Both the position numbers and the translations under genes were made by a program. A DNA stretch of 64,000 bases from positions 1-64,000 of IMG/VR virus record IMGVR_UViG_3300006108_000010. One strand, 5' to 3'. Position 1 is the first letter of the stretch. Every line of letters begins with the position of its first letter. The DNA comes from a virus. Below, piece by piece: positions 6,348 to 39,103 of this stretch. The notes below the pieces were generated by a model. That model was given only the letters and a program-made list of their open reading frames with translations, was not told the DNA's origin and did no database searches.

Positions 6348-6421
6348 TGGTGGAGGATTAGGGAATTCAACCCTAGACTCCGCAGTGCAAGTGCAGCGTT
6401 TTAGCACTAAACTAATCCCCC
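6348..6421 (-). tRNA. tRNA-Ala(TGC)
   Basis: The leftward strand folds into a full cloverleaf. The acceptor GGGGGAT/ATCCTCC contains the G3:U70 pair that specifies alanine. The anticodon loop is CTTGCAC, the T-loop TTGAATT, and A73 is followed by an encoded CCA. It is immediately downstream of the tmRNA, which also charges with alanine. Confidence 0.93.
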
Positions 6422-6431
6422 TTAAATAACT

Positions 6432-6881
6432 TGGAGGTGGGGAGAGTTGAACTCCCGTCCTTAATATTGGGTACTATATAATCTACACAAGCTTTGGCAA
6501 ACTTCGTACTTTCGTTGTCTAAAGGTAACAAGGCAATGCCAACCTATCTATGTTTAGAGACCTACCTGTATGAGTGAATAACGACCATCATACCACCGCT
6601 TGCACTTATTTTACGAGTATCACAAGAACTACTTCAACCTATTGTGATTCGACAAGAGCTTAATAGGATCTACTCTTGGTGTTTATGCTGCCATGAGACA
6701 GTAATCTTCTTCTTGGGAGAAGAGAGACTCTGCAACATTTGTCACGAATGACTTGACTACATTAACTGCATTGGTTATAGCCTTTGCGTTTATGTTTTAA
6801 TCGCCTTTTATAGTAGCCAAGCGATCAACTACTGCTTGCATACATAGCATTCAACAATTAAGTCGAAACCAGTACACCCCC
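6432..6881 (-). ncRNA. ssrA: Transfer-messenger RNA (tmRNA)
   Basis: The 5' end GGGGGTG and 3' end CACCTCC form a 7-bp acceptor with the G3:U70 alanine identity pair. The tmRNA-typical GGTTTCGAC lies at the 5' end, and a normal T-arm (GGGAG TTCAACT CTCCC) at the 3' end. No CCA is encoded. The tag frame ends EEDYCLMAA then TAA at 6683. If the resume codon follows GTAGTC, as UAGUC does in E. coli, the tag is 23 residues and starts at an AAG codon (6754). At 450 nt it is longer than common tmRNAs. Bacterial tmRNA tags stalled peptides for proteolysis. Here it would extend trans-translation under phage control. Confidence 0.93.
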
Positions 6882-6913
6882 GTTAAATTATACTTATCAA
6901 AGAACAAAGAACT

Positions 6914-6989
6914 TGGTACACGGAGTCAGGATCGAACTGACGACATTTCGCGTGTAAGGCGAATGCAACTACCGCTGTGCTATCCGTGC
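6914..6989 (-). tRNA. tRNA-Val(TAC)
   Basis: The cloverleaf has acceptor GCACGGA/TCCGTGT, anticodon stem TTCGC/GCGAA with loop CTTACAC, T-loop TTCGATC and an encoded CCA. The first acceptor pair is G:U. It lies upstream of the tmRNA in the same direction. Confidence 0.92.
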
Positions 6990-8742: not shown

Positions 8743-10527
8743 TTAGGACATTGCTTCCTGACCAACAATGTGTACACCAGCAGTAACAGCCTGTGTAGTT
8801 GTAACTGCAACCGTTAAGATATCTGGAGTATTTCCACGGATGTTGTTATATAATGGGAAGAAGTTTTGCAAGTTAACGTCCTGAACCGTACCAGCGGCAG
8901 GGGTTAAGAAACCATAAACAACTTCACCACCAGTTACAGCAGTTGCATTTAAATCCAATTCGGCAAATGAATAAGTTGATCCACTTGCAGAAAGAGGCTG
9001 GAAGTTTGCACCAGTTAACTTAACTGGATTTGTTGGAGTTGAAGCAATTAACTGAACAAGTGCTGTTCCGTTTGAAGTAATGAACATATCCTGTGGAAGA
9101 ATTTGCCCACGATCAATTAAACCAATCTGGTAAGGAGCACCAGCAGTAGGAGTAAATGGAATTGAACTTAATGTAACAACATCAACAAAACTAATTGAAT
9201 TTGTATTGTTAGCAGAAATCTTAGCAGTATATCCGTTTGGATATGTTGTTGAAGATAAACTTGGGAAATAAATTGCACGACCAACTAATTGATTAGTTGC
9301 CCAGTTTGAACCAGAAAATGCAATAAAATTGTTTGTAGGAGCAGGATTTGATGTAATAGGAGCATATGAACTATTATATTCAATTACACCCATTGTACGA
9401 GGACGGAAAGACATCAAGGGAATTGATGTTCTATTAGCAGGAACAGCTACGGTTGCACTATTTCCATAAGCATAGGTAAATCCTCTTTGTGGATCTCTCT
9501 GACCTTCAACGATAACCGATACACCATAATGCATGAAATTAGCAGATGTATTTGAGAAAGTTGTATCTCTCTGTTCGTATCTTACTGGTAAGTTACCAGT
9601 TCTACTCCACGCAAATTGCTGTAAGTTACCCATTGTCTGCTCATGGAGAATATAGGGTTCGCCTCCTAAAAGAACACCCCAACGTAAGCAACCAGCACCA
9701 TACCATGAATATTCTAACCATAACATTTGGTTATCATTCCAGTTGATCGAATTTTTAATTCCACTTGGATCACTCCATTGATCAAAACTTATTTTATAAT
9801 CAGTGTAAATTGAGTTTGTTGAAGTTCCGGTAAACGCATAAGGATTAATATCACTTCTCCAACAAACATAAATACCAGCTGGGTTATTTGCTGATAAAGA
9901 AGTATTTAAACCAGTTGTATTGATACCACTTGTTGCATATACACCAGAAGAAACAGCCGCAACATAAGATAAACCTAAAACAGAAGATGTTGTTGAATTT
10001 AAAGTAGAAGCTGGTGTACCTTGCTCAAAGAACATTCCGTTTGCATCATCAAAGAAACCTACACGTTGATATTGACCACCGTAAGGACCTCCAAAATTCG
10101 TAGCGGTTGCCATATACATCGATTTACCTGGCTGGTATCTATGATAAGGTCTTGATTGGCGAATGGTTACGTCACCGCCAGAAAGGATTTGCATGAGTAC
10201 GCCACCCATACCTGGCAACTGTTTCACGGTAGCGGTTCCGTATTGGGAGGATGTAAAAATCTCCCAACGCAATGGCTGGAGACCATATTCAAAGTCAGCT
10301 TCATAAATATTCTGTGAAAGGGAAACCTTGGCAGCACCTACAACACTCTTATTTCTCTTACCAAACTCTACATATGTATTTCCTGCACCACTTGCATTTA
10401 CTGGAAATACTGCTTGAGCATAAAGTGGTGTTCCTTGTGTATTTGGGACAGAAAACCATGAATTACTCCAAGCAACATTTGGATTCATTTGGAGTGTTTG
10501 AAGAGTAGGCGTAAATTGGATAGACAT
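8743..10527 (-). CDS. Large virion structural protein (594 aa)
   Basis: The protein is rich in Ser, Thr, Gly, Ala and Asn with mostly beta-strand character and no enzyme motif, as expected for a fibre or decoration protein. It shares NPNVAWSNSW near residue 15 and a central R-Q-S-R-x-Y-H block plus GMFFEQ with the 723-aa product at 19170-21341, so the two are paralogues. A TAAGTAA box lies 11 nt upstream of the ATG, marking it as a probable late gene. Confidence 0.85.
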   Translation of the reverse strand: MSIQFTPTLQTLQMNPNVAWSNSWFSVPNTQGTPLYAQAVFPVNASGAGNTYVEFGKRNKSVVGAAKVSLSQNIYEADFEYGLQPLRWEIFTSSQYGTATVKQLPGMGGVLMQILSGGDVTIRQSRPYHRYQPGKSMYMATATNFGGPYGGQYQRVGFFDDANGMFFEQGTPASTLNSTTSSVLGLSYVAAVSSGVYATSGINTTGLNTSLSANNPAGIYVCWRSDINPYAFTGTSTNSIYTDYKISFDQWSDPSGIKNSINWNDNQMLWLEYSWYGAGCLRWGVLLGGEPYILHEQTMGNLQQFAWSRTGNLPVRYEQRDTTFSNTSANFMHYGVSVIVEGQRDPQRGFTYAYGNSATVAVPANRTSIPLMSFRPRTMGVIEYNSSYAPITSNPAPTNNFIAFSGSNWATNQLVGRAIYFPSLSSTTYPNGYTAKISANNTNSISFVDVVTLSSIPFTPTAGAPYQIGLIDRGQILPQDMFITSNGTALVQLIASTPTNPVKLTGANFQPLSASGSTYSFAELDLNATAVTGGEVVYGFLTPAAGTVQDVNLQNFFPLYNNIRGNTPDILTVAVTTTQAVTAGVHIVGQEAMS

Positions 10528-11762: not shown

Positions 11763-11786
11763 TGGAGCGTCAAGTAGGATTTGAAT
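11763..11786 (-). pseudogene. 3' tRNA fragment fused to a homing endonuclease end
   Basis: The leftward strand reads ATTCAAATCCTAC, then TTGACGC, T and CCA. This is the T-loop 3' part, acceptor strand, discriminator and CCA of a tRNA. The expected 5' half (GCGTCAA...) is not found nearby. The GIY-YIG reading frame ends inside this fragment, as if it inserted into the T-loop. Confidence 0.6.
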
Positions 11787-12363
11787 ATCTATTCTTTCTA
11801 TATTTTACACCCTTATACCAATTTTGATTTAACAGAACATCAAACTGTTCTTGTGTTACCATTTTAGATTTTTTATAAAAATCGTTTGATATCCAAAATC
11901 TATTTCTATTACAATTATTCTCTTTCATCCTTTTGCTATACTCTAATCGTTTTTCCTTTGATAAGGCATTTTTCATTTTTTCAACAAATCTTTTTCTATA
12001 TTCTGGATCAGATTTTAATTTGTTAGCATGTATTAAGTGTTGATTTTTTTTATGGTTTAATTTGTTTTTATTTACATAATAAAAATTAGCTGGTCCACCA
12101 AGCTTGACATTGTAGTTTGTTTTATCATTTACGAATTCTTCATTAACAATTTCAATTTCTTTTTTGTACATTTCTTCTTCTGTATTAAACCACTCTAATA
12201 TTTCTTTTTTAAAATTTTTATTTCCGTATTTTTCTATAGCTTTTAATATCAATTTTCCAGATCCCATATACCCATCATCTAAATTATTAGTACTATGGAC
12301 ACCTATATAATATTTTTTATTAATTAAATTGGTTATTTTGTATAGATAGTAAAAATTATTCAT
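11770..12363 (-). CDS. GIY-YIG homing endonuclease (197 aa)
   Basis: LYKITNLINKKYYIGVHSTNN (residues 6-26) holds the GIY-YIG signature as LYKI and YYIG. GYMGSGKLILKAIEKYG and an EI-x-NEEF stretch follow, as in phage seg-like enzymes. The basic C-terminal half likely contacts DNA. I chose the ATG at 12363 because a TAAGTAT box lies 6 nt upstream and the longer frame reads through tRNA-Cys. The stop falls within a tRNA 3' fragment and the gene is flanked by tRNA genes, a typical homing site. Confidence 0.88.
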   Translation of the reverse strand: MNNFYYLYKITNLINKKYYIGVHSTNNLDDGYMGSGKLILKAIEKYGNKNFKKEILEWFNTEEEMYKKEIEIVNEEFVNDKTNYNVKLGGPANFYYVNKNKLNHKKNQHLIHANKLKSDPEYRKRFVEKMKNALSKEKRLEYSKRMKENNCNRNRFWISNDFYKKSKMVTQEQFDVLLNQNWYKGVKYRKNRYSNPT

Positions 12364-12369
12364 ATACAT

Positions 12370-12376
12370 ATACTTA
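12370..12376 (-). promoter_or_regulatory. TAAGTAT box
   Basis: The box is 6 nt before the start of the GIY-YIG endonuclease gene and decides its start over the longer frame that reads through tRNA-Cys. Confidence 0.5.
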
Positions 12377-12407
12377 CTAGGCAAGGGTCTAAAAATCATA
12401 AAAAATG

Positions 12408-12479
12408 AGCCTGATTTCGGTAACGCTCCGAACATAACGGTTTTGCAGACCGTGGACTTCTCTTGCTGTCTCATCAGGC
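12408..12479 (-). tRNA. tRNA-Cys(GCA), variant T-loop
   Basis: A perfect acceptor GCCTGAT/ATCAGGC with U73 (cysteine identity) and anticodon stem ACGGT/ACCGT with loop CTGCAAA. The T-arm is TTCGG AGCGTTA CCGAA, so the loop is AGCGTTA instead of TTCRANY, as in tRNA-Trp and tRNA-Lys here. A full CCA is not encoded. Confidence 0.88.
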
Positions 12480-12485
12480 AAAAAA

Positions 12486-12577
12486 TGGAAGCAGGTGTGG
12501 GATTCGAACCCACGGAACCGATAAAGGTTCTCCGCATTTCAAGTGCGGTGCAATAAACCGGACTCTACCAACCTGCC
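12486..12577 (-). tRNA. tRNA-Ser(TGA)
   Basis: A class II tRNA with a long variable arm (GAACC...GGTTC). The anticodon stem CCGCA/TGCGG holds loop CTTGAAA and the T-loop is TTCGAAT. The acceptor begins with a G1:U72 pair, with U73 and encoded CCA. Confidence 0.92.
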
Positions 12578-23469: not shown

Positions 23470-23564
23470 TGGAAGTGGGTATGGGAATCGAACCCATGCT
23501 AATCCCTCATCTAGGGAAGTTATAGGTATAAACTATATCGTGCTTCCAATTACACTAACCCACC
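23470..23564 (-). tRNA. Class II tRNA with TAT anticodon (identity uncertain)
   Basis: The acceptor is GGTGGGT/ACCCACT (G1:U72), with U73 and encoded CCA. The anticodon stem TATAG/CTATA holds loop TTTATAC, giving anticodon TAT (AUA, Ile). A long variable arm (TCCCT/AGGGA) follows and the T-loop is TTCGATT. Isoleucine tRNAs lack long variable arms. The G1:U72/U73 end and long arm match the two serine tRNAs here. The charged amino acid is therefore uncertain. Confidence 0.72.
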
Positions 23565-38794: not shown

Positions 38795-39070
38795 TTGAAA
38801 AGTGAAACAGCATACGCTTACATAAGATGGCACTCTCGTTGTGTGGTTATGAAAGATGCTCCTAAAGTCTGTGCAGTTTGTGGTTATGATGCTCATGTAG
38901 AAGTTGCTCATAAAATCCCGATTGCTGATTTTGAAGATAATGTAAGACTTAATACAATCAATCATATTGATAATCTTGTTTTGCTTTGTCCTAATCATCA
39001 TTGGGAGTTCGATCATGGTAATTTGAAACTGGTAGGAGTGGAGGGTAACGCTCCCTCTTCAATAAATTAA
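38795..39070 (+). CDS. HNH nuclease-domain protein, TTG start (91 aa)
   Basis: CAVCGYDAHVEVAHKIPIAD followed by INHIDNLVLLCPNHHWEFDH is an HNH core with CxxC pairs, catalytic-type His and Asn. The C-terminal ten residues are read from the tRNA-Lys gene on the opposite strand, so the tail looks truncated. It starts at a TTG (LKSETAYAYIRWHSR). It may be a shortened homing endonuclease next to a tRNA. Confidence 0.68.
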   Translation: MKSETAYAYIRWHSRCVVMKDAPKVCAVCGYDAHVEVAHKIPIADFEDNVRLNTINHIDNLVLLCPNHHWEFDHGNLKLVGVEGNAPSSIN

Positions 39071-39103
39071 AAGTTTATTGCATCACTTTAATGCTTCACT
39101 CCC
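39030..39103 (-). tRNA. tRNA-Lys(TTT), variant T-loop
   Basis: The acceptor is GGGAGTG/CACTCCT with A73 and encoded CCA. The anticodon stem ATAAA/TTTAT holds loop CTTTTAA. The T-arm is GAGGG AGCGTTA CCCTC, sharing the AGCGTTA loop with tRNA-Cys and tRNA-Trp. An HNH gene on the plus strand runs into it. Confidence 0.85.

Follow-up and report, generated by a model that had tools for sequence, protein, structure and literature searches.

A one-piece tmRNA gene in a T4-like phage contig rich in tRNA genes

The window analyzed here, a stretch of 64,000 nucleotides, comes from a virus record of 121,597 bases. This T4-like contig carries rIIA and rIIB, baseplate genes and a portal gene of the T4 type. 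The window is rich in tRNA genes, with 17 called by ARAGORN and one missed by that program and seen by Rfam alone (39033-39103, minus strand; 44 bits). An ARAGORN-predicted tRNA-Ile with anticodon TAT (23470-23564, minus strand) is 95 nt long, an unusual length for tRNA-Ile, and an ORF for a GIY-YIG (SegE-like) homing endonuclease (11770-12537, minus strand) overlaps a tRNA-Ser gene (12486-12577).

By means of ARAGORN and Infernal, we identified a one-piece tmRNA gene (ssrA) of ~450 nt on the minus strand (6881..6432), lying between genes for tRNA-Ala and tRNA-Val (Table 1). More specifically, the RF00023 match (6881..6431, minus strand) spans model positions 1-374 of 374 and reaches 104.4 bits (E 1e-39), relative to a family cut-off of 47 bits. 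The 7-bp acceptor stem contains the alanine identity element G3:U70, and both the T-arm and the TTTCGAC motif are present. The initial annotation had described a complete phage-encoded tmRNA between these two tRNA genes, and the covariance-model match bears this out. The standard 5'-3' order and the single full-length RF00023 match exclude a two-piece (permuted) form. Ahead of the tmRNA 5' end, a CTTTGATAA-like stretch (~6889-6905, minus strand) is conserved in most relatives and is possibly a promoter or processing signal.

Table 1. Features of the tmRNA locus, in window coordinates
Feature	Position	Strand	Basis or remark
tRNA-Ala (UGC), 10 nt downstream of tmRNA	6348..6421	-	ARAGORN, Rfam
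tmRNA gene ssrA, one-piece, no encoded 3' CCA	6432..6881	-	RF00023, ARAGORN, sequence
3' strand of acceptor stem (CACCUCC) with U70 at 6435; followed by discriminator A (6432) and AG	6433..6439	-	Sequence, relatives
T-arm GGGAG-UUCAACU-CUCCC	6440..6456	-	Sequence; within RF00023 match
Tag stop codon TAA	6683..6685	-	Sequence
Tag frame, 34 codons, AKAITNAVNVVKSFVTNVAESLFSQEEDYCLMAA	6686..6787	-	Frame 0 open in each of 18 sequences; excess of synonymous changes; length steps of three
Candidate tetraloop hairpin GUCA-UUCG-UGAC within tag frame	6741..6752	-	Stem invariant save one mismatch
Candidate hairpin around resume codon, GCA..GG......CC..UGC	6768..6787	-	One varying pair, rest invariant
Predicted resume codon GCA (Ala), ACAUAAAC before it; A at -4 (6791) = E. 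coli A86	6785..6787	-	TAAA(A/C/T)GCA conserved, frame rule PMC2481249
Pseudoknot PK1	6797..6833	-	S1 sequence varies across family, pairing kept
PK1 S1, UUGAUCGCUU with AGGCGAUUAA	6828-6819 with 6806-6797	-	
PK1 S2, AGUAG with CUACU	6833-6829 with 6816-6812	-	
Acceptor stem 5' strand GGGGGUG, partner 6433-6439, G3 at 6879	6875..6881	-	Pairing, compensatory changes in relatives
tRNA-Val (UAC), 32 nt upstream of tmRNA	6914..6989	-	ARAGORN, Rfam

Related tmRNAs in viral contigs

A tag search in successive rounds (6, 17 and 18) recovered homologous tmRNAs with 32-35-residue tags in 18 further IMG/VR contigs, a metagenomic set that includes a few near duplicates. RF00023 matched 16 of 17 related records at E<=0.001, and 15 of the 17 scored above the cut-off; of the two below it, G020 is cut short at the contig end and G017 has an insertion within the gene. 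The family tag consensus is AK(A/V)I(T/A)NAVxxVKS..TN with the C-termini CLMAA, CLAAA or YALAA, and the start AK(A/V)I(T/A)NAV is found in all relatives except L033, which has AKAKIANAV. A separate search from a nearby structural protein gave mostly short contigs but also a relative of 163 kb, in which the tmRNA occupies the corresponding position.

Among reference phages, neither a nucleotide search with the window tmRNA nor a search for the tag module gave a match, and the region around a related locus (L041) gave just 4 short matches of ~52-67 nt. Tag patterns were searched twice in the GTDB genomes (84,980-species collection) and no match was confirmed, so that these searches pointed to no bacterial donor or host; a search of viral contigs with the C-terminal tag pattern also gave none. 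When 18 related loci, including an interrupted and a truncated one, were scanned with ARAGORN, it called a tmRNA in 2; the program thus misses most of this class or, as happens in the window, shortens the tag. Surveys that rely on ARAGORN may therefore undercount phage tmRNAs or list wrong tags.

Predicted resumption at GCA and a 34-residue tag

In strand order, PK1 is followed by AAACAUAAAC and GCA-AAG-GCU-AUA, from which 34 codons remain open up to the TAA at 6685-6683. The gap from PK1 S1 to GCA is 9 nt in the window tmRNA and 8-10 nt in the family. In E. coli, the resume codon lies four nt down from the near-invariant A86 in UAGUC (PMC2481249); UAAAC-GCA in the window tmRNA fits this rule, and TAAA(A/C/T)-GCA marks the beginning of each tag in the family. 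From these sequence features, translation is predicted to resume at GCA 6787-6785, with the tag beginning with alanine as usual and comprising 34 residues, or 35 counting the carried alanine.

Two shorter tags, one from the initial annotation and one from ARAGORN, share this frame and start within it, at codons 12 (Lys) and 18, respectively. Within codons 1-17, variable sites are distributed 5/4/11 over codon positions 1/2/3, and synonymous changes make up 47% of the pairwise codon differences when read in frame 0, versus 13% and 12% when read in the two alternative frames. Moreover, frame 0 is free of stops in relatives, stops are present in the other frames, and tag lengths differ among relatives by multiples of three. 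The synonymous excess and the length steps of three indicate that codons ahead of both shorter starts are translated.

The initial annotation had resumption occurring at AAG (Lys) following GTAGTC (codons 10-11), which resembles the UAGUC element of E. coli, and giving a 23-residue tag KSFVTNVAESLFSQEEDYCLMAA. Its C-terminus, EEDYCLMAA, is indeed found at the end of the 34-codon frame. However, relatives have CAGTC, CAGTT, CGGTC or CGGTT at the corresponding site and TAGTC is conserved in none of them, so the likeness to UAGUC is attributable to chance. Such a start would also lie ~42 nt past PK1 S1, codons 1-11 upstream of the Lys are themselves under coding constraint, and comparison of tags among relatives yielded a TAAA(C/T/A)-GCA alanine start common to all. 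We therefore regard resumption at lysine as extremely unlikely; the tag is unusual for its length and its conserved N-terminal module, not for its first residue. Highly unlikely as well is the 17-residue tag VAESLFSQEEDYCLMAA starting at 6736, which is direct program output of ARAGORN and is nearer the typical tag length, but whose start is not near PK1 and is preceded by codons that are conserved as codons; ARAGORN itself begins at AKAI in two relatives (L034 and L041).

Structure and constraint in the RNA

G3:U70 is kept in 15 of 15 relatives with both acceptor strands readable, and the acceptor stems covary (GGGGGUG/CACCUCC, GGGGGCG/CGCCUCC, GGGCUAG/CUAGUCC and GGGCGCG/CGCGUCC), as does PK1 S1, with pairing preserved. 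In the H5/PK2-PK4 region, the RF00023 alignment has low posterior and a 101-base stretch is not displayed; folding of single sequences points to a hairpin resembling H5 at codons 18-34.

The window tmRNA ends in CCTCCA followed by AGTT (CCTCCAAGTT), so that CCA is not encoded and this copy would depend on a CCA-adding enzyme. CCA is not required in all tmRNA genes and can be added posttranscriptionally, and membership in the class hence stands. This feature, together with the unassigned PK2-PK4, could point to a decaying, non-functional tmRNA acquired from a host. We consider such decay very unlikely, because the compensatory changes in acceptor stem and PK1, as well as the open frame conserved with synonymous excess in the 18 further contigs, indicate purifying selection; in addition, ACCA is encoded by most relatives, although L028, L035 and L037 have no encoded CCA.

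Four-fold third-position divergence is 0.154 in codons 1-17 versus 0.63 in the last five codons, indicative of a constraint beyond the peptide. Two hairpins in the message are candidates for this region. In the one around the resume codon, the variable pair is A-U in 10 of 16 sequences and G-C in 6 of 16 and is never broken, this covariation amounting to one base pair and few independent events. In the other, the tetraloop differs with tag length: tags of 33-35 residues have UUCG or UUCA, and tags of 32 residues have mostly GNRA (GCAA, GCGA, GUAA, GUGA; once GUUA). The observed paired-cell share and covariation score were reached by no shuffle, in a control that ignores relatedness. With a single varying pair in the first and a nearly invariant stem in the second, we put both forward as proposals based on the alignment.

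The codons of residues 14-15 (FV, FM, AM or VM) fall in the second hairpin, on its loop and stem, which entangles peptide and RNA constraints; the apparent conservation of the peptide is in part confounded by constraint on the RNA. The tmRNA might thus be functional while its long N-terminal part is kept mainly as RNA structure, the peptide stretch having no separate role. Constrained third positions in codons 1-17, changes at residues 14-15 exactly where the loop shifts from UUCG to GNRA, and the one perfectly covarying pair are all in line with this explanation, but synonymous changes occur at K2, I4, V11, N17 and E20 with the residues kept, and a hydrophobic face is preserved throughout. 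Taken together, we judge it the less probable explanation, though one that deserves serious weight.

A two-part tag peptide

The helical hydrophobic moment of the first 22-23 residues is 0.40-0.54, compared with ~0.17 in shuffles, and the amphipathic moment is significant (p<=0.0015) in each of 14 tags tested. AlphaFold2 models residues 1-20 as a helix (pLDDT ~91), with lower values in the C-terminal part (68, then 59). The tag thus appears to consist of a helix and, behind it, a loose end resembling a degron. In E. coli, C-terminal LAA is bound by ClpX and ALA by ClpA (PMC3968760); CLMAA has M in place of the L of the ClpX-bound LAA.

The tag types divide between two phage lineages. A T4-type portal is present in the CLMAA records G000, G011, G013, G016 and G017, and the YALAA records G021, G025, G026, G027 and G028 have no T4-type portal and carry a ClpP-family protein. 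The ClpP-family gene is found in 5 of 5 large YALAA records and in 0 CLMAA records. Its product is a stand-alone protein of ~187 aa with plausible catalytic Ser, His and Asp identified by eye (L092-L096), and its gene neighbors encode a RecB-like exonuclease, a DNA-polymerase-related protein and a DNA polymerase exonuclease-like protein. The PHROG profiles that it matches are mostly annotated 'head maturation protease', which leaves its role uncertain. We considered a functional coupling of ClpP and YALAA and set it aside: the association holds, but the tag sets represent different phage lineages and phylogeny alone may account for it. The two tag types are intermixed in the tmRNA tree, where L031 groups with L035 and L084 (support 0.72), which hints at exchange of the tmRNA gene between the two lineages.

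Comparison with known tmRNAs

The window tmRNA shares with the bacterial one-piece tmRNA (ssrA, RF00023) the tRNA-like domain with G3:U70, the TTCGA motif, the T-arm, PK1, the resume GCA with A at -4, a tag ending in hydrophobic residues and AA, and a TAA stop; it differs in its 34-residue tag, its long structured message and the lack of a linked smpB. Phages carrying a tmRNA include Bacillus phage G, Streptomyces BE1 phages, mycobacteriophages such as Bxz1, Stenotrophomonas phage Marzo and the methylophage Melnitz, and in these, as in the window, the tmRNA gene resides in a tRNA-rich phage genome. The reference phage tags, i.e., AKLNITNNELQVA of phage G (13 residues), ANSKFAFALAA of Samisti12 (11) and AESNSAFALAA of Mildred21 (11), are without the AKAI(T/A)NAV module of the window family. 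Two-piece permuted tmRNAs, known from alphaproteobacteria and aquatic phages, also occur in phages, Melnitz among them (PMC9004378); in contrast, the window gene has its tRNA-like halves in standard order.

Phage tmRNAs have been found in 402 of 18,146 phage genomes (PMC9004378), and a 2025 database holds 79 unique phage tmRNA sequences (PMC11915505). The commonest tmRNA tag length is 10 residues (PMC11915505), which the window tag exceeds about threefold, and the known range of 8-35 residues (PMC3968760, PMC8012679) includes 34, although with the patterns used the window tag has no sequence relative in the 84,980-species collection. There is thus precedent both for phage tmRNAs and for tags as long as 35 residues; what is new is the conserved tag in two parts, together with the structured message that encodes it.

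Proposed role and an interrupted relative

We conclude, with a probability of roughly 0.85, that the locus encodes a one-piece tmRNA of a T4-like phage that serves ordinary ribosome rescue and adds an unusually long two-part tag from GCA 6787. Sequence and comparison show its tmRNA architecture, the resume frame and the length of the tag, and that these are conserved across 18 other viral contigs. If the gene is expressed, as we infer, host AlaRS would charge the tmRNA via G3:U70, in keeping with established tmRNA biology, and host SmpB and EF-Tu would deliver it to stalled ribosomes; none of 11 phage records examined, most of them fragments, has an SmpB gene, so host SmpB is presumably used. 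Resumption at GCA 6787 would append the 34 residues (35 with the carried alanine), and the CLMAA, CLAAA or YALAA end would act as a degron directing the product to ClpXP-type proteases. Residues 1-22/23 would form an amphipathic helix, their codons also folding into hairpins that may compact the long message. The likely benefit would be ribosome recycling while messages are cut in infection.

That host or phage proteins are retagged for altered degradation, as first proposed, is plausible. A more speculative and rather unlikely extension is that the amphipathic module sends phage-tagged proteins elsewhere than host tagging would, e.g., to a phage or host adaptor, the membrane or a phage ClpP, thereby reprogramming rescue proteolysis; a ClpP-family gene is indeed present in the large records of YALAA-tag phages. 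Behind the tag family stands the wider question of the role of phage tmRNAs in infection. The family, found here in viral contigs alone, combines a conserved additional peptide module with a resume codon that does not vary and with C-termini of three types, and it makes effects of phage tags on protein fate testable.

One relative (L033/L075 in G017, IMGVR_UViG_3300027721_000063, ~8860-10010 of the contig) has its tmRNA gene interrupted by ~640 nt, with both tmRNA flanks kept. Rfam gave no match to a group I or other intron in this interrupted gene. The insertion carries an endonuclease VII-like ORF (PF02945, 85 bits) and lies in the PK1 loop; the tmRNA introns known so far sit in the T-loop (PMC11915505).
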